NCBI RefSeq assembly: GCF_000731095.1
Contig: NZ_JMTZ01000012.1
Location: 1 to 64,000, forward strand
Length of the DNA stretch: 64,000 nt
Origin: Lysobacter antibioticus
GTDB taxonomy: Bacteria > Pseudomonadota > Gammaproteobacteria > Xanthomonadales > Xanthomonadaceae
Direction: 5' to 3'
Part shown: positions 25,975-36,727 of the stretch, piece after piece
How positions within the stretch are numbered: position 1 is the first letter of the stretch
Layout: every line of letters starts with the position of its first letter
Program-made: the position numbers and the translations under genes
Notes under the pieces: model-generated
What the model was told of the DNA's origin: nothing
Database searches by the model: none
Seen by the model: only the letters and a program-made list of their open reading frames with translations

Positions 25975-27948
25975 TCAGCGCGGAATCGCCAGGTCGGCGG
26001 CCTTCAAGGCCTGCCCTTGCGCGCGCGGCGCGGTCTGGATCAGCGCATCGGCCGGCAAGGGCTGGTCCCGGTCGAGGTGCGCGTCGACGCGGTCGAGCGC
26101 CTCGTAGACATAGGGCAACAAGGGCAAATAACGCGTGCTCAGCGCCGGCAGGCCGAGGAAGGCATCGAAGTGCTGGACGTTGCGCACCTGCCAGTAACGC
26201 ACCTGCGCGCCGGCCTCGCGCGCCATCGCCACATAGGGCGCGCTGCTGAAGGCCGGCGGGATCAGGCCGTCGTCGAGGCCGTGCACGACCACGATCGGCA
26301 GGTCCTTGCGCGGCGCCGACGCGCGGGTCGCCTCGATGCCCTTGCGCACGCGTTGTTGCGCGGCGGCGAGCGCGGCGCCGCGCCCGGGCTGTTGCTCAGC
26401 GAGCGGTTCGCCGTTCCACAACTCGCGCAGGCCCGCCAGCGGCGCGAGGCGTTGCTCGGGCTGCGCCGCATTCGGGCCGAACAGATACACCCCCGCGCCC
26501 GGCGGAATGCCGCTGGCATCGGACCACCAGGCCGCGCGTTCGGCTTCGCTGGCGGCGCGTTCGCTGATCGGCGCGCCCGGAGCGACCTGGCCGGCGCTGT
26601 AGACGTAGCGGACCCAGGGCTGGTCGGGATTGCGCGTGCGCGGCTGCTGTGCCGCGCTGAAGCGGCCGTAGGCCGAGGCATAGGTCGCCGCGACCGCGCG
26701 CCACAGATCGAAGTTGACCGACAAGGCGCCGGCGCGCAGTGCGTCGTCGCTCCAGCCGTTGCCGCGCATGCGCTCGTAGGCGGCTTGCGCACGCACCTGC
26801 GTGCTCGCCTGCTTCGCCGCCTCGCCGAGCAAGCCCAGGGCGGCGGCGTAGTTGCAGAACGATTCCGCGCTGTCGCCGCTGATCGGCGCCACCGGCATCG
26901 CACCCAGCGGCTTGTGCAACAAGGCGCAAGGCATCAACAAGGCGGCTTCGGTGGTGTAGTCGTACAAGGGCCGCGCGCCTTCGACGTAGACGTTCGGCTC
27001 GCCGGCCACGACCGCATCGAGCCAGCGACCCTCGCGCCCGCCCTCGTCGTCGAGTTCGGCCGCGCGTAACACCGCGCCGCCGCCGTTGGAAATGCCGACT
27101 GCGATCACCCGCGTATTGGCGAAGGTGAAAGGCGCCTGTTTCGGAAAGGCTTGGTCGAGCGAGCGCAAGCCGAACTGCGCGGCCTGACGCACGTGCCGGC
27201 CCCAATCGGCCTCCGGGTTGTCGCGCGAGTGCGCATGCTTGAAGGCGACGCCCTTCGAAGCTTCGCGTTCGTTCGCATTCGGAGTGAAGGCCAGCCCGCC
27301 TTCGGCGACCGGGCCGGTGGTGCCGTCGGCACGCACGCCGATGCCGGCATCGAAATCGAAATAGTCGGTGCCCGCGCCCTTGTCGGTGTAGGCCACCGCG
27401 CAGCCCTTCGGCAGGCCCCAGGCGCCGGCGACCGCGATCGAGCCGTAGACGCCGCGCGAGCCCGACGAGGCGCTGACCACCAGGCAACGCTTCTTGGCAT
27501 CGAACTCGTCGGGCACCTGCACCAGTACGCGATGCGGCTGATGGGCGCCGGGCAAATTCGCGAACGCGCTGAACTCGCGCCCGGGCACGCGCGCGAGGCT
27601 GCCGTACAGCTCACCGTAGCCGCCGCCCGGGGCGAGGTCGGCGATGCCGCGCCAGTTCGCCCACAAGGCGCGCCGACGCAACTCCGCAGCGGTGGGATGC
27701 GCGGCGTCGGCGAACGCCGGCGGCAGCATCGCGCGCAAGCCGTCGAGGCCGAGGCCTGCGCTGAGCAGGTCGTCGTGCTCGCCGCGATGCTCGGTCTGGC
27801 GTTCGGCGCTGAACATCGATGCGGATTCCTGGCGGGCGTTCGGGGCGGCGGAGCGCTGCTTGGCGGCGACCGCCACCGGCGATGCCGCGCAAGCCAGCAA
27901 GACGAGGGCGGCGGTGGCCGCGGCGGTGCGAAGGGATTGGGCGCTCAT
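25975..27948 (-). CDS. Secreted D-(-)-3-hydroxybutyrate oligomer hydrolase
   Basis: 657 residues with a signal peptide (AAATAALVLLACAASPVAVAA, about 8-29). The family is recognised by length, by RRALWANWRGIADLAPGGGY and GAGTDYFDFDAGIGVRADGT, and by the nucleophile Ser287 in VGISNGGG. The acid is likely the first Asp of VHGLDDGLIPP and the histidine is in NVQHFDAF. The enzyme splits water-soluble 3-hydroxybutyrate oligomers, the products of PHB depolymerases, to 3HB monomers in the periplasm or outside. It is divergent from a NarL-type response regulator gene with 100 bp between starts; a GTACTTTCGTACA motif lies in that gap. Locus partners: hybrid kinase, TonB receptor and GntP permease. Confidence 0.92.
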   Translation of the reverse strand: MSAQSLRTAAATAALVLLACAASPVAVAAKQRSAAPNARQESASMFSAERQTEHRGEHDDLLSAGLGLDGLRAMLPPAFADAAHPTAAELRRRALWANWRGIADLAPGGGYGELYGSLARVPGREFSAFANLPGAHQPHRVLVQVPDEFDAKKRCLVVSASSGSRGVYGSIAVAGAWGLPKGCAVAYTDKGAGTDYFDFDAGIGVRADGTTGPVAEGGLAFTPNANEREASKGVAFKHAHSRDNPEADWGRHVRQAAQFGLRSLDQAFPKQAPFTFANTRVIAVGISNGGGAVLRAAELDDEGGREGRWLDAVVAGEPNVYVEGARPLYDYTTEAALLMPCALLHKPLGAMPVAPISGDSAESFCNYAAALGLLGEAAKQASTQVRAQAAYERMRGNGWSDDALRAGALSVNFDLWRAVAATYASAYGRFSAAQQPRTRNPDQPWVRYVYSAGQVAPGAPISERAASEAERAAWWSDASGIPPGAGVYLFGPNAAQPEQRLAPLAGLRELWNGEPLAEQQPGRGAALAAAQQRVRKGIEATRASAPRKDLPIVVVHGLDDGLIPPAFSSAPYVAMAREAGAQVRYWQVRNVQHFDAFLGLPALSTRYLPLLPYVYEALDRVDAHLDRDQPLPADALIQTAPRAQGQALKAADLAIPR

Positions 27949-27984
27949 CCTCTCAGGCTAGCAAGTCGCGCGCAGCGCCTCATC

Positions 27985-27997
27985 GTACTTTCGTACA
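27985..27997. promoter_or_regulatory. Candidate response-regulator site, copy 1 (GTACTTTCGTACA)
   Basis: A short inverted repeat, GTAC-TTTC-GTAC, midway between the divergent starts of the hydrolase (27948) and the response regulator (28049). The same pattern, 11 of 13 bases, occurs at 35242-35254 between the TonB receptor and the GntP permease. Confidence 0.55.
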
Positions 27998-28048
27998 GCC
28001 GTGCACGGCGGCCGCGGCCGGTGCGCCGGGCCTGTTAGGCTAAAGACG

Positions 28049-28714
28049 ATGCCGACCCTGCTGATCGCCGACGACCACCCGCTGTTCCGCGCCGCGCTGC
28101 GCCAGGCCGCGGCCGATGCCGTGCCCGACACCATGATTCGCGAAGCCGGCACGCTCGACGACACCCTCGCCGCGCTCGAAGCCGAGCCCGGCATCGACCT
28201 GGTTCTGCTCGATCTGCACATGCCCGGTAACCACGGCCTGGCCGGGCTCGCGGCGATCCGCGCGCAGTACCCCGGCACCGCGGTCGCGGTGGTGTCGGCC
28301 AACGACGATCCGCGCGTGGTGCGGCGCGCGCTCGACCATGGCGCCGCCGGTTATCTGCCCAAGAGTTCCGGCCTGGACGAATTGCGCGATGCGATTCGCG
28401 CGGTGCTCGCTTGCGAGCAGTGGCTGCCGGCCTCGTTGCGCGCCGCGGTCGCGCGCACTCACAGCGAGCGCGGCGACGCCGACCTCGCCTCACGCCTGGC
28501 CAGCCTGTCGCCGCAGCAGTTCCGGGTGCTGACCCTGGTCGCACAGGGCTTGCTCAACAAACAGATCGCCGATCGCCTCGACGTGCAGGAGCGCACAGTC
28601 AAGGCGCATCTGTCGGCGATCTTCGACCGCCTCGGCGTGCGCAACCGCACCCAGGCCGGCGTGGTCTTGCGCGAACTCGAATTGTCCGACCCGGCGCGGC
28701 GAATCGAAGACTAA
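28049..28714 (+). CDS. NarL/LuxR-type response regulator (CrbR/ErdR-like)
   Basis: 221 residues from ATG 28049 (MPTLLIADDHPLFRAALRQA). The receiver domain covers 1-120 with acidic pocket Asp8-Asp9 and phospho-acceptor Asp55 in VLLDLHMPG, a switch Ser near VVSAND and Lys in GYLPKSSG. The LuxR-type helix-turn-helix is at about 150-215: LSPQQFRVLTLVAQGLLNKQ, then RTVKAHLSAIFDRLGVRNRT. Together with the SSF-containing hybrid kinase next door (convergent, 348 bp away) it fits the CrbS/CrbR (MxtR/ErdR) system, which controls acetyl-CoA synthetase and acetate use in other gammaproteobacteria. Here it likely governs hydroxybutyrate use. Pairing is inferred from position. Confidence 0.88.
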   Translation: MPTLLIADDHPLFRAALRQAAADAVPDTMIREAGTLDDTLAALEAEPGIDLVLLDLHMPGNHGLAGLAAIRAQYPGTAVAVVSANDDPRVVRRALDHGAAGYLPKSSGLDELRDAIRAVLACEQWLPASLRAAVARTHSERGDADLASRLASLSPQQFRVLTLVAQGLLNKQIADRLDVQERTVKAHLSAIFDRLGVRNRTQAGVVLRELELSDPARRIED

Positions 28715-29062
28715 GCGCTAGCGTCGGCTCGGACGTTCGGCGCCCGCCGCTCGACCCCGGATTCCTTGGTGGCGTCTAGCGTCGGACACTCGCGCCGTCA
28801 AGACTGCGCACGCCATCGCGGATCGTGATAGGCCTGCGACGAAGCACGCGGCACAGACCTTGGCACATTCAGGCTGTTTATCGTTTTCGCGGCCCGTGTT
28901 GTCCACACAGCCTGTGGACAAGCCTGCGGACAGTTCTCTTCCAACCACTCGCAACGCATTGCTACGCAAGCATTGCAATAGGGTTGGCTAGAAAATGACC
29001 ACCAAATTTCCTTGACTTTGCTCACGCTTGGTCACCACCCGAATTGGGCGCGGCGATGGCGC
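28715..29062. other. Convergent intergenic region with paired DnaA-box-like sites
   Basis: 348 bp between two stop codons, with no gene-like frame. It contains the inverted 9-mers at 28899-28921, a repeated TAGCGTCGG (28721 and 28778 area) and a relatively AT-rich right end with two GCATTGC copies. Confidence 0.5.
28899..28921. promoter_or_regulatory. Inverted pair of DnaA-box-like 9-mers
   Basis: TTGTCCACA (28899-28907), spacer CAGCC, TGTGGACAA (28913-28921): a perfect inverted repeat. TTGTCCACA is one mismatch from the E. coli box TTATCCACA and equals the consensus box of high-GC genomes. A weaker TGCGGACAG follows. Confidence 0.55.
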
Positions 29063-32000
29063 TCAGCGCTCGATTCCGCCGGCGGCGAGCAAACGGTCGA
29101 GCACCGATTTCAGGGCCAGCGGCTTGACCGGTTTGGCCAGCAGCGACCAGCCGGCGGCATGCACCGATTGCCGCACCGCAGCACCGGTGTCGGCGCTCAG
29201 CAGCAGGCAGGGCCGTGCGCCGAACTCGTCACTGAGCCGCTGCGCCAGGGCCACGCCGGTGTCGTCGTCGTCGAGGTGGTAGTCGAACAGCCACAGCGCC
29301 GCGGGCTGCTCGCGCATGGCCCGGCGCGCGTCCTCGCCGACGCTGGCGGTGACCACCGCGCAGCCCCAGCGCCGCAGCGTCTCGCTCAATGCGCCCAAGG
29401 CCTGCGGATCGTTGTCGACCGCGAGCACGCGCAGCCCGGCGATGCCGCGCGCCGCGCCGGCGGACGCGATCGGCTGCGATGCGATCGGTTGCGGCACGGG
29501 CAGGCTCGGCACGCGTACGCCGAACGCGGTGCCGTGGCCGACGCGGCTGTGCAGGCTCAGCGGCGCGTTGAGCAATTGCGCAATGCGGTCGGCGATCGAC
29601 AGGCCCAGGCCGAGGCCCTGCCCCGGCGCGTCCTCGCCACGGCGGAATTCCTCGAAGATCATCGTGCGCTGGTCGGCCGCGATGCCCGGGCCGCTGTCGT
29701 GCACTTCGATCGACAGGCCGCCACCGCGCCGACGCACGCCGATCAACACCCGACCCTGCGCGGTGTAGCGCACCGCATTGGCGAGGAAGTTCTGCAATAC
29801 GCGGCGCAGCAACTGCGGGTCGCTGCGGGTCCAGGCGCGCGAGGCGACATAGCGGAAACGCAGGCCGCGCGCGGCGGCGATCGCGCCGAACTCCGAGGCC
29901 AACGGCTCCAGCACTTCGGCCAGCGGAAACTCGCGCGGCTGCGGCACCAGGCCGCCGGCCTGCAAACGCGACATGTCGAGCAAACCGGTCAACAGATCGC
30001 CGGTGGAATCGAGCGCGCCGCCGATCTGGGCCACGGTTTCGCGTTGCGCCGGCTCGGCGACCTGCTGCGCCAAGGCATCGGTGAACAACTGCGCGGCATG
30101 CAGGGGCTGCATCAGGTCGTGGCCGACCGCGGCGAGGAAGCGGCTCTTGGCTTCGTTGGCACGCTCGGCCTCGCGGGTCGCCACTTCCAGGTCGGCGGTG
30201 CGCTCGGCGACGCGCTGCTCCAGGGTTTCGTTGGCCTGGATCAGGCCGGCCTCGGCGCGCCGGAACGCGGTGACGTCGGTGAAAGTCGCGACGAAGCCGC
30301 CGCCGGGCATCGGGTTGCCGCGGATTTCGATGATGCTGCCGTCGGCGAGCACGCGCTCGGACAAATGCGCGGTGCCCGCGCGCATGAAGGCCAGGCGCCG
30401 TTCCAGCGAATATTCGATATCGGCCTGCATCGGCAGGCGCTGCATCGCCCAGCGCGCGAGATCGGCGATCGGCCGGCCGACCTGCAGCAACTCGGCCGGA
30501 TAGCCGAACAGCTCGGCATAACGGCGGTTCCAGGCGACCAGGCGCAGTTGCGCGTCGACCACGCTGATGCCTTGGCTCATGTTCTGCAACGCCGCTTCCA
30601 GCAGACGCTGGTTGAAACGCAGGTCGGCCGAGGCCTCGCCGACGATCGCCGCCACGGTGTCGAGATCGCGCCCGGCTTCGCGCCGCGCCGCGTCCAGCAG
30701 CACCCGCGCCGAGGCCGAACCCAGCACCGCGGCCAGTTCGCGTTCGACCCCTGCTTCGACCGTGGCATCGACCGCGCCGCCGGCCGGCACCCCGTCGAGC
30801 AATTGCGCGACTCTTTCGCGCGACAGAAAGCGCAGGCCGGCGTCGCGCAAGGTCTGTGCATCGAGCCCGCGGCGCGCATGGCGCGGCGATTCGCGCCGCC
30901 ACAGCGCCGCCAGCACGGTGGTCAGGGTGCCGATGAACAGACTGACGCCGACCGCGCGACCGAGCCGGCTCCAGCCGGTCAGGCCGAACAAACGTTCCGG
31001 CGCCAGCCAATGCCAACCGAACGGCCCCTCGTGCAGCCACGACGGCGCGATACCGCGCGCTTCGTACAACAGCGGCAGCAGCAACACCCAGGCCCAGGCC
31101 GCGAAGCCGGCGACGATGCCGGCGAAGGCCGCGCGCGCCGGCGTCTGCGGCCGCCACACCGCGAACGCGAGCGCCGGCGCCAGGGTCGCCAATGCCGAGA
31201 ACGACACCGCGCCGACGTCGGCCAGCGCCTCGCTGCCGGCGATCAGGCGGCTATAGCCCCAGGCCAACAGCATGATCGCGACGATGCCGGCGCGGCGCAG
31301 CGCGAGCACGCGCCCGCGCAAGTCGTCGTTGCGTGCCCAGGCGCCGCGCAGCAGGCCCGGCGCGAACCAGTGGTTGCCGATCATCAGGCTCAGGGTCAGG
31401 GTGCTGACCACGACCATGCCGGTGGCGGCGCTGAGCCCACCGAGGAAGGCGAACAGCGCCAGCGATTCGTGCCCTTGCGCCAGCGGCAGGGCCAGCACGT
31501 ACAGGTCCGACGGCACCTGGGTGCCCAGCAGGGACTGGCCGACCTTGGCCAGCGGCAGCACCGGCAAGGCGATCAACAACAGATACAGCGGGAACTGCCA
31601 ACGTGCGGTGCGCACGTCGGCTTCATCGCGGCATTCGACCACTGCGACGTGGAACTGGTGCGGCAGGATGAACATCGCCAGCCCGCCGAGCAGCACCAGC
31701 GGCACGAAACCGCCGGCCGGCTGCGCCGGTGCGTCGACGGCGACCGTCGCGGCTTGCGGCAGATCGCCGAGGCCGAACCAGACGAAGGCGCCGAGCGCGA
31801 GCATTGCGGCGAGCTTGAACACCGACTCGAACGCCATCGCCAGGACCAGGCCGCGGTTGTGCTCGGCCGCGCTGGCGCGGCGGGTGCCGAACAACATCGC
31901 GAACAAGGCCATCGCCAGGGCCACGTACAGCGCGCTGTCGCGCCAGGCCGGCAGCGCGCCGCCGTCGGTCGCGCGCGTGGTCAGCATCGCGAAGCTCATC

Positions 32001-32413
32001 GCCACGGCCTTGAGCTGCAGGGCGATGTAGGGGATCAGGCCGAGCGCGGCGATCAAGGTCACCAGCGCGGCAAGCCAGGCGTCCTTGCCCAGGCGCGTGG
32101 CGATCAGGTCGGCCAGCGAGGTCGCGTTGGTTTCGCGCGCCAGCTTGACCAGTTTGACCATGAAACCGAGCGCGAGCGCGTAGAACAGGATCGAGCCGAG
32201 GAAGGTCGGCGGCAACGGCCAACCGTAACGCGCCGCCTGCGTGACCGTGCCGTAGAAGGTCCACGAGGTGCAGTGCACCGCGAGCGACAGCGCATAGATG
32301 TGGCGCCAATGCCGCGCCAGCACGTTCGGCCGCCGCTCGGCGAACAGCGCGGTGCCGAACATCAGCGCCAGCCAGGCCAGGCTGGCGAAGGCGACGACGG
32401 TAAGGCTCAGCAT
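29063..32413 (-). CDS. Hybrid sensor kinase SSF-STAC-PAS-HisKA-HATPase-REC (CrbS/MxtR type)
   Basis: 1116 residues. A sodium:solute symporter-like domain fills 1-505 with 13 or so membrane segments (SLADLIATRLGKDAWLAALV, FILPHQFHVAVVE, FAFLGGLSAATGMVVV). A STAC-like linker domain (about 515-585: LRFLSRERVAQLLDG, ASARVLLDAAR) precedes a PAS domain (605-720), a coiled coil (725-755) and HisKA with phospho-acceptor His765 in AAVGHDLMQPL. The ATPase has N-box Asn875/Asn879, DSGPGI at 906 and GLGLGLSI; the C-terminal receiver has Asp1044 in LFDYHL. This architecture is that of CrbS/MxtR/NahK-type sensors, which link substrate transport or recognition to regulation of acetate-like metabolism. The presumed partner is the NarL-type regulator at 28049. 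Confidence 0.93.
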   Translation of the reverse strand: MLSLTVVAFASLAWLALMFGTALFAERRPNVLARHWRHIYALSLAVHCTSWTFYGTVTQAARYGWPLPPTFLGSILFYALALGFMVKLVKLARETNATSLADLIATRLGKDAWLAALVTLIAALGLIPYIALQLKAVAMSFAMLTTRATDGGALPAWRDSALYVALAMALFAMLFGTRRASAAEHNRGLVLAMAFESVFKLAAMLALGAFVWFGLGDLPQAATVAVDAPAQPAGGFVPLVLLGGLAMFILPHQFHVAVVECRDEADVRTARWQFPLYLLLIALPVLPLAKVGQSLLGTQVPSDLYVLALPLAQGHESLALFAFLGGLSAATGMVVVSTLTLSLMIGNHWFAPGLLRGAWARNDDLRGRVLALRRAGIVAIMLLAWGYSRLIAGSEALADVGAVSFSALATLAPALAFAVWRPQTPARAAFAGIVAGFAAWAWVLLLPLLYEARGIAPSWLHEGPFGWHWLAPERLFGLTGWSRLGRAVGVSLFIGTLTTVLAALWRRESPRHARRGLDAQTLRDAGLRFLSRERVAQLLDGVPAGGAVDATVEAGVERELAAVLGSASARVLLDAARREAGRDLDTVAAIVGEASADLRFNQRLLEAALQNMSQGISVVDAQLRLVAWNRRYAELFGYPAELLQVGRPIADLARWAMQRLPMQADIEYSLERRLAFMRAGTAHLSERVLADGSIIEIRGNPMPGGGFVATFTDVTAFRRAEAGLIQANETLEQRVAERTADLEVATREAERANEAKSRFLAAVGHDLMQPLHAAQLFTDALAQQVAEPAQRETVAQIGGALDSTGDLLTGLLDMSRLQAGGLVPQPREFPLAEVLEPLASEFGAIAAARGLRFRYVASRAWTRSDPQLLRRVLQNFLANAVRYTAQGRVLIGVRRRGGGLSIEVHDSGPGIAADQRTMIFEEFRRGEDAPGQGLGLGLSIADRIAQLLNAPLSLHSRVGHGTAFGVRVPSLPVPQPIASQPIASAGAARGIAGLRVLAVDNDPQALGALSETLRRWGCAVVTASVGEDARRAMREQPAALWLFDYHLDDDDTGVALAQRLSDEFGARPCLLLSADTGAAVRQSVHAAGWSLLAKPVKPLALKSVLDRLLAAGGIER

Positions 32414-32826
32414 GAGGCGGCGACGGGAGGCATCGGCGCAGGATAGCGCAGCGGTTCGGTGCGGCGGATGGGCCTGCGGATGAAAAGGGGTCGCTTTGGC
32501 TACGCGAAGCGAAGGCTGGGCAAAAGCAAATCCCCCCTACCCCCCTCAACAAAAGGGGGAACAGCATGGGCTTTGGGTGGGGAACGAATCTCCCGGAAGC
32601 ACTTCCCTGTTTACAAGAGAGAACGGCACGAGCTTCGGGATCGAACGAATCGTCCCGAAGTACCTCCCCCTTTGGAAAAGGGGGACCGAGGGGGATTTGC
32701 TCTCGGCTCTCGGCTCTCGGCTTTCACTTCTCAATATCCGACCCAAGCCAAACAAAACGAATCCCCGCCATCCGTGGCAGAGGATTCACGCCGTCACGGC
32801 GACGTCGTCGGTCGCCGCGGCAACGA
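32414..32826. other. Intergenic region holding the MITE-like copy 2
   Basis: 413 bp between the kinase start and the receptor stop, both minus strand. Apart from the element and the TCTCGGC repeats, no gene-like frame is seen; the kinase promoter should lie at its left side. Confidence 0.5.
32525..32701. mobile_element. MITE-like element, copy 2 (177 bp)
   Basis: Starts AGCAAATCCCCCCTACC and ends GGGGGATTTGCT, with hairpin-forming C/G runs at both ends (CCCCC-TTTGGAAAA-GGGGG at the right). It lies in the 413-bp gap between the kinase start and the TonB receptor stop, so it may separate the kinase promoter from the receptor's 3' end. A short TCTCGGC tandem repeat (32699-32722) follows it. Confidence 0.7.
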
Positions 32827-35070
32827 TCAGAACGCGTACTTCACCGACAGCGTGTACTGGCGCGGCGGGCCGTAGAAGCCGGTGTAGACGCCCAAGGCCG
32901 AGTTGAGGCTGTAACCGGTGGTGCGGTATTCCTTGTCGGCCAGGTTGGTGCCCTGCAGCGACACCGTCCACGGGCCCGGGCTCTTCCAGGTCACGCCGGC
33001 GTTGACCAGGCCATAGCCGTCCTGGGTGATCGGCACTGCGCCGGTACGGATGATCTCGGTGGTCGCCACCACGTCGCTCTGGTAGCTGTAGCCCACGCGC
33101 GCCGACAGATTGCTGCCGTTGCTCAGGTCGGTGCGGTACTCGACGTTGAGCGCGCCGGAGAAGTCCGGGGCGTTGGTGAACTCCTGCTCGTTGGCGATGT
33201 TGACGCCGGCATAGATGAATTCGTCGTACTTGGCGTCGAGCCAGGCCAGGTTGCCCGAGATCAGCCAATGCTCGTTCGGCAGCCACTGGTATTCGACTTC
33301 CAGGCCCTGCACCGTGCCGGAGCCTGCGTTGGTGAAATCGCCGAAAAAGGCATCGTTGGTGCCGTCGCCGTTGCTGTCGTAGGCGGTGAACACCGACAAC
33401 TGGATGTCTTTGTAGTCGTTGTGGAAATAGGCCAGGTTCAAGAACAGGCGCTGATCGAAGAAGGCCATCTTGCTGCCGACTTCGAAGCTGTCGACGACCT
33501 CGTCGTCGAAGGGCTCGGCCGAGCGCGGCACCGCGGCGGCCTGTGCGCGGATGTTGTAGCCGCCGGACTTGAAGCCGCGCGTGGCCAGGCCGTACAGCAG
33601 AATGTCGGGCGCGATCTGGTAGTCGAGCGAGATCTTCGGCGAGGTGTTCTTGAAATTGATCTTGCGGTCGAAATTCGCCGCGACCAGGCCGTTGGGCACG
33701 CTGAAGCTGGCGTCGCGGTAGCCGCGGTTGAGCACCTTGGCGCGCTTGTCCTCGTCGGTGTAGCGCACGCCGACGTCGAGCTTGAGCTTGTCGGTAAGAT
33801 CGAAGGTCCAGTCGGCATAAGCGGCGATGCTCTCGGTGAAGACCGTGCCCTGGGTGTCGCCGAAGCTGGCGTTGAAGAAGTTGTTGAGCACCTGGCCGCC
33901 GGCCTCGCCGTCGAAGGCGTACACGCCCATGACACCGCGGGCGCGGCCGCCGCCGTCGTAGTTGGCCTGCAGCTCGTGGGTGATCTGCTGGTCGCTGTAG
34001 AACGCCTTCACGTCGGCAATCTTGTTCTGCAGAGTGTCGAAGTCGATGTTGGTCTCGGTGTCCGACTCGCGCTTGGCCAGCACGTACTTGAAGCTCCAGT
34101 CTTCGCTGGCGCGCCAATTGACCGTCGCCGACGCGCCCTTGATGGTGGTGTCGTTGATGTTGGGCATGCCGCTGCGGATGTCGTAGCGCGAATTCAGCGG
34201 CGCCTGGCCCGGGGCGAAACGGTTGGCGGCGAGCATCTTGGCGCCGCGCACGCCGGACTGGTCGTCCATCCAGTCGAAGGCGAACTGGATATCGAGGGCA
34301 TCGCTGACGTAGGCGCCGAGGCTGCCGCGCAGGGCGAGAATCTCTTTATCGCTGACGTCCTGGCCGGTAACCACGTTCTCGCCAAAACCGTCGCGGTTGA
34401 GGCTGGCCACCGAGAGGCGGCCGCGCAGGGTGGCATCGCCGCCCTGGGTGCTGCCGCCGATCGGGCCGGCGATCGCCGCCTTGACGTCGAGCTGGCCGTA
34501 GTTGCCGACCGTGACCGAAGCGAAGCCGTCGAGCGAAGTCGGCAGGCCGCGCGAGATGTACTTGATCGCGCCGCCGATGGTGTTCTTGCCGTACAGCGTG
34601 CCCTGCGGGCCGCGCAGCACTTCGATGCGCTCGACGTCGAACACGTCGAGCAAGGCCCCCTGCGGACGGGCGATGTAGACATCGTCCATGTAGATGCCGA
34701 CGCCCGGGTCGACGCCCCACAGCGGATCGGACTGGCCGACGCCGCGGATATAAGCGGTGATGGTGCTGCTGGAGCCGCGCGCGGCGTAGATGGTCAGATT
34801 GGGCACCTGCGCGTCGAGGTCGCTGAGGTCTTCGACATTGAGCCGATCCAGCGCCTCGGGCGTGAACGCGGTGATCGCGACCGGCACCTCCTGCAAGGTC
34901 TCCTCGCGCTTGCGCGCGGTCACGGTGATCGAACCCAGCGTCTTGGCCTGCGCCTCGGCGGCCGGCGCGGCTTCCTGCGCCCAGGCGGCCGGCGCCAGCA
35001 ACGCGCCGGCGATGGCCAGGCTCAACGTGCTGTGACCGATCTTGCTGCGTGTCTGCTTGCCTTGCTTCAC
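32827..35070 (-). CDS. TonB-dependent outer-membrane receptor (hydroxybutyrate locus)
   Basis: 747 residues from GTG 35070, which has GGAGAG seven bases before it; ATG codons further upstream lie in non-coding sequence. Signal peptide: STLSLAIAGALLAPAAWA. The TonB-box-like GSITVTARKREE is followed by the plug (about 50-165: EVPVAITAFTPEALDRL, VDPGVGIYMDDVYIARPQGA, RIEVLRGPQGTLYGKNTIGG) and a 22-strand barrel ending in RQYTLSVKYAF with terminal Phe. The class resembles Xanthomonadaceae/sphingomonad receptors for organic nutrients rather than siderophores. It shares a divergent promoter region with a GntP permease, and probably imports hydroxybutyrate oligomers or related compounds. The substrate is inferred from context only. 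Confidence 0.9.
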   Translation of the reverse strand: MKQGKQTRSKIGHSTLSLAIAGALLAPAAWAQEAAPAAEAQAKTLGSITVTARKREETLQEVPVAITAFTPEALDRLNVEDLSDLDAQVPNLTIYAARGSSSTITAYIRGVGQSDPLWGVDPGVGIYMDDVYIARPQGALLDVFDVERIEVLRGPQGTLYGKNTIGGAIKYISRGLPTSLDGFASVTVGNYGQLDVKAAIAGPIGGSTQGGDATLRGRLSVASLNRDGFGENVVTGQDVSDKEILALRGSLGAYVSDALDIQFAFDWMDDQSGVRGAKMLAANRFAPGQAPLNSRYDIRSGMPNINDTTIKGASATVNWRASEDWSFKYVLAKRESDTETNIDFDTLQNKIADVKAFYSDQQITHELQANYDGGGRARGVMGVYAFDGEAGGQVLNNFFNASFGDTQGTVFTESIAAYADWTFDLTDKLKLDVGVRYTDEDKRAKVLNRGYRDASFSVPNGLVAANFDRKINFKNTSPKISLDYQIAPDILLYGLATRGFKSGGYNIRAQAAAVPRSAEPFDDEVVDSFEVGSKMAFFDQRLFLNLAYFHNDYKDIQLSVFTAYDSNGDGTNDAFFGDFTNAGSGTVQGLEVEYQWLPNEHWLISGNLAWLDAKYDEFIYAGVNIANEQEFTNAPDFSGALNVEYRTDLSNGSNLSARVGYSYQSDVVATTEIIRTGAVPITQDGYGLVNAGVTWKSPGPWTVSLQGTNLADKEYRTTGYSLNSALGVYTGFYGPPRQYTLSVKYAF

Positions 35071-35241
35071 GTGTGTCTCTCCCCTTGTAGCGGCCGTTTG
35101 CAGCAGCCGTTCGTAGCGATCGCGATGGGCCGGTGTCCGCACCGCCGCCATTCCGCCCCCACGCGAGAATGGCGGCGGCAGCTGGACGAAGGCCCCCGTC
35201 ATGCCGCGCAGACTATGAGGACGCGGTCACGCCGGGCAGCT

Positions 35242-35254
35242 GTACCTTCGGACA
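35242..35254. promoter_or_regulatory. Candidate response-regulator site, copy 2 (GTACCTTCGGACA)
   Basis: Lies 76-88 bp before the GntP permease start and 172-184 bp before the TonB receptor start. It matches the site at 27985-27997 in 11 of 13 bases (shared pattern GTACYTTCGKACA). Confidence 0.55.
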
Positions 35255-35329
35255 ATGCCCCGTCCGCCCGCGCTTGCCGACACTGCGCGCACCGACGGGC
35301 CTGGACGTTCGTCACGGGGAAACAAACCG

Positions 35330-36727
35330 ATGGCGTTCGTGATCGTGCTGGCCGCGCTGTGCTTTCTGATGTATGTCGCCTATCGCGGCCACAGCGTGAT
35401 CCTGTTCGCGCCGGTGGCGGCGCTCGGCGCAGTGCTGCTGACCGACCCGAGCCTGGTCGCGCCGATGTTCACCGGCCTGTTCATGGACAAGATGGTCGGC
35501 TTCCTCAAGCTGTATTTCCCGGTGTTCCTGCTCGGCGCGGTGTTCGGCAAGCTGATCGAGGTCTCGGGCTTCTCGAAATCGATCGTCGCCGCGACCATCC
35601 GCCTGCTCGGGCGCGAACGCGCCATGCTGTCGATCGTCGCGGTCTGCGCCCTGCTCACCTACGGCGGCGTGTCGCTGTTCGTGGTGGTGTTCGCGGTGTA
35701 TCCCTTCGCCGCCGAGCTGTTCCGCCAGAGCGACATTCCCAAGCGCCTGATCCCCGGCACCATCGCGCTCGGCGCGTTCACCTTCACCATGGACGCGTTG
35801 CCGGGCACGCCGCAGATCCAGAACATCATCCCGACCGCGTTCTTCGGCACCGACACCTGGGCCGCGCCCTGGCTGGGCCTGATCGGCGGCGTGTTCATCC
35901 TGATCGTCGGCCTGCTCTATCTGAACTGGCGCCGCCGCGTGGCGCTGCGCGCCGGCGAAGGCTACGGCGAGAATCTGATCAACGAGCCGGCGCCGTTCGC
36001 CGGCGGCCGCCTCGCCCATCCGGCGGTCGCGATCCTGCCGCTGCTGCTGGTCGGCATCGCCAACAAAGCGTTCAGCGTGTGGCTGCCGCAGGTGTACGGC
36101 GCTCGACACAGTTTCGACCCGGCGGTCATCGGCGACGCCGCGCCGGTAGTGCAGGAGGTGTCGAAAATCGCCGCGATCTGGGCGGTCGAAGGCGCGCTGT
36201 TGATCGGCATCGCCGCGGTGGTCGTCTTTGCCTGGAAGCCGGTGACGGTGAGCTTCGCCGAAGGCAGCAAGGCGGCGATCGGCGGCGCCCTGCTCGCGGC
36301 GATGAACACCGCCAGCGAATACGGTTTCGGCGCGGTCATCGCCGCGCTGCCGGGCTTCCTGGTGGTCGCCAATGCCCTGGCCGCGATTCCGAACCCGCTG
36401 GTCAACGAAGCGGTCACGGTGACCGCCCTGGCCGGCATCACCGGCTCGGCCTCGGGCGGCATGAGCATCGCGCTCGCGGCCATGGCCGACAGCTTCATCG
36501 CCAACGCCAACGCCGCCGGCATCCCGATGGAAGTGCTGCACCGCGTCGCCGCGATGGCCTCCGGCGGCATGGACACCCTGCCGCACAACGGCGCGGTCAT
36601 CACCCTGCTGGCGGTGACCGGCCTGACCCATCGCCAGGCCTACAAGGACGTGTTCGCGATCACCCTGATCAAGACCATGGCGGTGTTCGTGGTGATCGGG
36701 GTGTTCTATGCGACCGGGGTGGTGTGA
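35330..36727 (+). CDS. GntP-family permease (candidate hydroxybutyrate transporter)
   Basis: 465 residues from ATG 35330, preceded by GGGGAAA. About twelve hydrophobic segments, starting MAFVIVLAALCFLMYVAYRG. GntP-family features: LLTYGGVSLFVVVFAVYPFA, FTMDALPGTPQIQNIIPT and the C-terminal SGGMSIALAAMAD, SGGMDTLPHNGAVITLL. GntP members import gluconate, and related ones carry 3-hydroxybutyrate in pseudomonads. With the 3HB-oligomer hydrolase in the same locus, hydroxybutyrate is the best guess. It is divergent from the TonB receptor, with a shared regulatory motif between them. It is inner-membrane and proton-coupled by family. Confidence 0.9.
   Translation: MAFVIVLAALCFLMYVAYRGHSVILFAPVAALGAVLLTDPSLVAPMFTGLFMDKMVGFLKLYFPVFLLGAVFGKLIEVSGFSKSIVAATIRLLGRERAMLSIVAVCALLTYGGVSLFVVVFAVYPFAAELFRQSDIPKRLIPGTIALGAFTFTMDALPGTPQIQNIIPTAFFGTDTWAAPWLGLIGGVFILIVGLLYLNWRRRVALRAGEGYGENLINEPAPFAGGRLAHPAVAILPLLLVGIANKAFSVWLPQVYGARHSFDPAVIGDAAPVVQEVSKIAAIWAVEGALLIGIAAVVVFAWKPVTVSFAEGSKAAIGGALLAAMNTASEYGFGAVIAALPGFLVVANALAAIPNPLVNEAVTVTALAGITGSASGGMSIALAAMADSFIANANAAGIPMEVLHRVAAMASGGMDTLPHNGAVITLLAVTGLTHRQAYKDVFAITLIKTMAVFVVIGVFYATGVV

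Follow-up and report, generated by a model that had tools for sequence, protein, structure and literature searches.

Two SLC5 transporter-kinases had been characterised before a third was added in 2022 (PMC9100948). In the acetate system CrbS/CrbR (MxtR/ErdR), an SLC5-type hybrid kinase is paired with a LuxR-type regulator, and an inverted-repeat operator lies just upstream of the promoter (PMC5715377, PMC8402216). The pyruvate system RpuS/RpuR of Sinorhizobium fredii is a second SLC5/STAC pair beside a CrbS/CrbR pair in one genome; it controls a transporter gene, its motif being a direct repeat upstream of mctP (PMC9100948). The transceptor CbrA (PDB 10ed) binds histidine (PMC13022988, preprint). 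In Pseudomonas aeruginosa, the 3-hydroxybutyrate (3HB) dehydrogenase and growth on 3HB are controlled by PA2005, which is a sigma-54 enhancer-binding regulator and no transporter-kinase two-component system (PMC13390443). Among the matches listed for the open-access literature, none described an SLC5 two-component system specific to 3HB. Here we present a candidate for one, a block of five adjacent genes of Lysobacter antibioticus coding for a predicted 3HB-oligomer hydrolase, a NarL-type response regulator, an SLC5 hybrid sensor kinase, a TonB-dependent receptor and a permease. They lie in a stretch of 64,000 nucleotides (contig NZ_JMTZ01000012.1, positions 1 to 64,000; hereafter the window) from a genome of 5.5 Mb in 168 contigs.

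We suggest, with a probability that we put at about 0.72, that the block is a dedicated regulon for scavenging oligomers of 3HB and of poly-3-hydroxybutyrate (PHB), run by a paralogue of CrbS/CrbR. The pair itself is best read as a new branch of the SLC5 transporter-kinase systems, apparently insulated from an acetate paralogue in the same genome. In the proposed course of events, the SLC5 domain of the kinase would bind 3HB or a close relative and the kinase would phosphorylate the NarL-type regulator, which would then bind operators in the two divergent promoter regions as a class-II activator. Oligomers would be carried across the outer membrane by the TonB receptor and cut by the exported hydrolase, and the 3HB monomer would be imported by the permease. 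Finally, 3HB dehydrogenase, encoded in the block in many genera and elsewhere in the window genome, would oxidise 3HB to acetoacetate. A bolder version makes the sensor a ketone-body transceptor, whose transporter domain would read 3HB directly and drive a private regulon with a TonB receptor importing PHB oligomers. We regard this version as tentative and, taken in full, rather doubtful; an open-access literature search on such cargo of TonB receptors returned nothing.

The five adjacent genes had been recognised in a sequence-only reading of the window. Profile scans confirmed the identities of all but the permease, and the block was found in the same order in all 19 other genomes of the genus searched. 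That reading also proposed a single 3HB pathway under the flanking two-component pair, for which there is now support, at the level of inference, from the conservation of the operator sites across genera, from split blocks, from fixed promoter spacing and from the dehydrogenase gene that often stands beside the hydrolase gene.

The evidence starts from a motif shared by the two divergent promoter regions. Its two copies (27985-27997 and 35242-35254) are identical at 11 of 13 bases, just as first described. The exact 13-mer GTACYTTSGKACA is found twice per genome in 20/20 genus genomes and all 40 occurrences are at this locus, in the two divergent promoters, compared with 7 matches of the reversed-pattern control over the same genomes. 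The idea that the motif is promiscuous was therefore rejected for the exact 13-mer. The whole operator is an inverted repeat with the best form CATYGTAC-YTTS-GKACRATG.

The operator is conserved well beyond the genus. Permease matches at an expectation value (E) <= 1e-30 were found in 209 of 297 genomes of the family, and the family sample consists of 40 permease-centred loci, 19 chosen motif-centred loci (mostly second sites) and the genus loci. Upstream of the hydrolase gene the operator core is exact in 55 of 62 regions and within one mismatch in 58, a count in which L142 and L167 figure as misses with 4 mismatches through a misplaced gene start, though their sites are exact. Upstream of the permease gene, 51 of 63 regions have an exact core and 57 are within one mismatch. 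Neither set contains a region with an exact reversed pattern, and the exact core is present in 0/64 regions upstream of the kinase gene. Exact sites occur in 22 of 26 genera at the hydrolase and in 22 of 29 at the permease, and the best locus of each genus is within 2 mismatches in all 26 and all 29 sampled genera, respectively. A named set, comprising the best 80 of 328 confirmed hydrolase loci and overlapping in part with the family sample, includes Luteimonas, Pseudoxanthomonas, Thermomonas, Stenotrophomonas and Tahibacter; its hydrolase sites are exact in 65 loci, within one mismatch in 75 and within two in all 80, and 34 of the 44 loci with a permease gene have an exact site there. In six genomes the block is split (L163-L167, L169), the hydrolase and permease genes being separated by more than 100 kb or located on two contigs; in these, a second site lies between the hydrolase gene and the regulator or dehydrogenase gene. 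Further, 15 of the 19 motif-centred loci adjoin a block gene, and the 12-mer GTACYTTSGKAC is scarce in two genera of the family without a listed permease match (2 in 17 genomes of g7, 9 in 17 of g17). In a class-level sample, PF10605 was present in 10 of 369 genomes. One of them (G662), which belongs to another family of the order, carries an exact site together with the genes for hydrolase, dehydrogenase, regulator and kinase and part of the receptor gene. Another (G583), from outside the order, has the complete block; its site next to the dehydrogenase gene contains one mismatch and the one next to the permease gene is exact.

The operators also keep a fixed position. Measured from the site start, a TANNNT element begins at 36 nt toward the hydrolase gene in 52/59 loci, at 36-37 nt toward the dehydrogenase gene in 16/18 and at 37-38 nt toward the receptor gene in 58/62; toward the permease gene, GANACT is found at 37-38 nt in 59/62. 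The operator centre thus falls near -42, about 42 bp upstream of the presumed starts of the hydrolase, receptor and permease messages and, where present, of the dehydrogenase message. Class-II activators bind near -42. Because of this fixed distance from the -10-like elements, we propose that the operator is placed as for a class-II activator. The ACTU motif of the acetate system has a similar position at acs, where it occupies -52 to -36 (PMC5715377). Toward the regulator gene the spacing is dispersed (41 loci without an intervening dehydrogenase gene), so its own promoter probably has another mode of activation, if any. In 47 of 54 loci the ATG of the hydrolase gene stands 12 nt after the start of the -10-like element, that is on the presumed +1; the message may therefore be leaderless.

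Several features tie the block to 3HB. The hydrolase belongs by profile to PF10605 and would cleave 3HB oligomers. A 3HB dehydrogenase gene adjoins the hydrolase gene in 19 of 62 loci and 15 of 26 genera, and in the loci inspected operator 1 is found on that flank of the dehydrogenase gene which faces the hydrolase gene; in the named set the dehydrogenase gene is adjacent in 36 of the 77 loci with enough sequence. Three block dehydrogenases were scanned: two score above the cut-off of TIGR01963 (3HB dehydrogenase), and the third, of a second type, falls below it and above that of NF009093, a profile of the same name. In one genome a third site (L180) precedes a stand-alone dehydrogenase gene, with TANNNT 37 nt from the site as judged by eye. 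The window genome has two Esterase_PHB-type genes. It gave no PhaC_N match, and this absence fits scavenging and not storage. It could be argued that the pair does co-regulate the operon but senses another small hydroxy or keto acid, such as acetoacetate or lactate, or that receptor and permease carry cargo unrelated to PHB. The permease matches no characterised family and is replaced by a relative of about 36% identity in genera g22 and g5, and the receptor of some genera is only 31-35% identical to that of the window. The hydrolase and the two types of 3HB dehydrogenase found in the same slot, however, all point to 3HB, and we consider this alternative unlikely, even if it is the most serious one.

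A further alternative is that the pair is simply the CrbS/CrbR acetate system of the organism, the hydrolase and transporters being extra members of the acetate regulon. The likeness is real: the domain order of the window kinase is that described for CrbS (PMC5715377), and the best NCBIfam match of the window regulator is ErdR, at 214.5 bits, below the cut-off of 390. However, the window genome has a second pair. A regulator 52% identical to the window regulator is encoded 790 bases downstream of acs and scores higher for ErdR, at 242 bits, although this too is below the cut-off; a second SLC5 hybrid kinase is encoded on the same contig as acs. The block regulator, unlike CrbR, does not adjoin acs, and a regulator gene stands beside acs in 24 of 30 loci. 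The acs promoter of the window genome carries TACGACCAAGGTCTAAA, which resembles published ACTU sites (PMC5715377). With an ACTU pattern adjusted to published sites as tabulated and to some acs promoters of this dataset, such a site was found at 27 of 30 acs promoters, at 0/62 hydrolase and at 0/63 permease upstream regions. The reverse holds for the block operator, which was found at 0/30 acs promoters, contrary to the initial expectation that it would lie upstream of acs as well. Judged by its promoter sites, acs is not controlled by the block pair. The two operators differ inside the half-site, GTAC in the block and CGAC in ACTU, and serve other targets. In the recognition helix, the block regulators have Q180 (58/59) and R182 (59/59), and the acs-side regulators have S and A at these positions (24/24), so that from one pair to the other a change of operator class goes with a change of recognition-helix class. 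With ACTU missing at the block, the operator missing at acs and different recognition helices, we reject the acetate regulon as an explanation and rate it quite improbable. That some other regulator binds the operator and the neighbouring pair is incidental seems to us more improbable still: binding by the block regulator is predicted from sequence, but its gene is near the hydrolase gene in 70 of the 71 named loci whose sequence extends far enough, the operator is an inverted repeat in a position like that of ACTU for CrbR, and the operator and recognition-helix classes change together.

The proposed 3HB pair can also be compared with other transporter-linked systems. Like RpuS/RpuR it coexists with an acetate-type pair, but its operator is an inverted and not a direct repeat, and there is no mctP among the five block genes. 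The kinase gave no SSF match at its N-terminus in the Pfam scan; its residues 3-453 are nonetheless SLC5-like, as judged by a profile comparison with CbrA (structure 10ed, E 4e-80). The equivalent of the CbrA lysine K196 (PMC13022988, preprint) is kept, whereas residues of the histidine pocket differ. At the equivalents of this pocket, block kinases have T49, L67, F71 and G243 in place of S, F, Y and A in 20 acetate-type sensors, all from one genus, and K200 is shared by both. These differences are suggestive only.

Several observations weigh against the proposed 3HB regulon. Firstly, loose matching of the motif is not enriched: the window has 22 matches at <=3 mismatches where 17.6 are expected, the own genome at 1 mismatch has 7 motif and 10 reversed-pattern matches, and the 12-mer is rarer in the genus than its reversal (42 and 70 matches in 18 genomes). 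Two further 12-mer matches lie on contig C14 of the own genome, and 4 of the 19 chosen motif-centred loci (L168, L171, L177, L179) have no block genes nearby. Single-genome scans would therefore mislead. The question raised at the outset, whether the motif is common in random DNA of the genome, thus has two answers: in the genus the exact 13-mer occurs only at this locus, and loose matches are not commoner than controls. The evidence rests on the place and recurrence of the motif, and loose raw counts are uninformative. Secondly, neither of the two exact sites in the window genome lies at its own 3HB dehydrogenase gene (contig C90), upstream of which the motif had been expected. Thirdly, 6 genomes from outside the order were sampled, and for 5 of them the 14-20 kb fetched contain the hydrolase gene but not the pair. 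Our counts come from related loci and are of non-independent events, and the -10-like patterns were picked after the consensus had been inspected, the weight lying on the sharp single spacing. The sensor-pocket differences amount to 3 or 4 of 9 positions, compared with 73 class-discriminating columns overall. Finally, regulation, ligand and the substrates of receptor and permease are all deduced from sequence.

If the proposal of a 3HB regulon holds, the locus adds to the few characterised SLC5 kinases a branch for which a ligand is predicted and a two-site operator is defined, and which shares its cell with a paralogue. With both pairs in one cell, the selection of ligand and of DNA site can be compared at the level of single residues. 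The block would also offer soil bacteria a concrete candidate route for the uptake of PHB fragments; PHB is widespread as a storage polymer and is sold as a bioplastic.

Coordinates of the block genes and promoter elements in the window
Feature	Position	Strand	Remarks
3HB-oligomer hydrolase (predicted)	25975..27948	-	PF10605, 416.4 bits, cut-off 27; orthologues in 20/20 genus genomes
NarL/LuxR-family response regulator	28049..28714	+	REC and GerE domains; paralogue of CrbR/ErdR; Q180 and R182 in recognition helix; conserved start ATG 28049
Hybrid sensor kinase	29063..32413	-	SLC5-PAS-HisKA-HATPase-REC; paralogue of CrbS
TonB-dependent receptor	32827..35202	-	longest open reading frame; profile scan
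Permease, probably ion-transporter superfamily ('GntP' tentative)	35330..36727	+	predicted fold; family-wide matches
Operator 1, CATCGTACTTTCGTACA	27981..27997	+	between hydrolase and regulator genes
Operator 2, GGCAGCTGTACCTTCGGACAATGCC	35235..35259	+	between receptor and permease genes
Extended -10-like element of hydrolase gene, TGCTAGCCT	27955..27963	-	TANNNT spacing; presumed +1 is the A of the hydrolase ATG
-10-like element of regulator gene, TAGGCT	28036..28041	+	variable distance from operator 1
-10-like element of receptor gene, TAGTCT	35210..35215	-	TANNNT
-10-like element of permease gene, GACACT	35279..35284	+	GANACT

The initial labels of hydrolase, regulator, SSF/SLC5 hybrid kinase and TonB receptor stand. 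A receptor start near 35070, which the sequence-only reading implied, is plausible, since the alignments of several orthologues begin only at about residue 42. The GntP label of the permease is tentative at best: Pfam gave nothing better than E 3, NCBIfam gave no match, and the search of solved structures by sequence yielded a single match at E 0.77 and none with a single-sequence query. The AlphaFold model is of middling quality, with a mean predicted local distance difference test score (pLDDT) of 66, and is nearest to MleN, TRAP and INDY-type transporters, the best template modelling score normalised to the query being 0.57-0.58 at that pLDDT. The GntP family is assigned to the ion-transporter superfamily, and the permease is probably a member of this superfamily.

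The hydrolase had been called secreted; its PF10605 identity is firm and its secretion uncertain. The window protein has a lipobox-like LLAC near residue 20, and a permissive pattern finds a lipobox-like tetrapeptide in 54 of 62 orthologues. In its usual form the hydrolase is therefore probably a lipoprotein, exposed to the periplasm or the medium, and the window hydrolase is possibly one. Among the 8 orthologues without the pattern, one has a misplaced start and 7 come from the genus of the window, which contributes 20 hydrolases in all; in part of Lysobacter the hydrolase may have turned soluble.

A second copy of the block is found in one genome of the family, G047 (L311, G047:C8:413200-433100). 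Its kinase (53%) and regulator (66%) are diverged, the recognition helix of the regulator reads Q-L-R, and the site at 8844-8855 of L311, CAGCGTACCTAGGTACGCTG, is a perfect palindrome; this copy lends itself as a natural test case for co-change of operator and regulator. On the acetate side, the acs promoters of L038, L183, L184 and L185 share the stretch CACCATTCGCCATTGGTCGTAA, which immediately precedes the ACTU site and may be a second half-site. G000 has a third CrbR-related regulator (46%; C63:13852-14472) beside a kinase piece (C63:14857-16416) that matches the PAS-kinase-REC part only (46%) and gave no SLC5 match.

Some variants of the operator regions may be added. The four motif-centred loci with no block gene in the fetched stretch, all from other genomes of the family, carry exact 12-mer sites, either chance matches or further targets. 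At locus L020 of G003, some 400 bases containing a short open frame are inserted between operator 1 and the regulator gene, and the operator has remained beside the hydrolase gene. In L173, L174 and L182 the permease is replaced by a 36%-identical relative and the operator between receptor and permease genes is kept; in L182 the receptor is only 33% identical as well.

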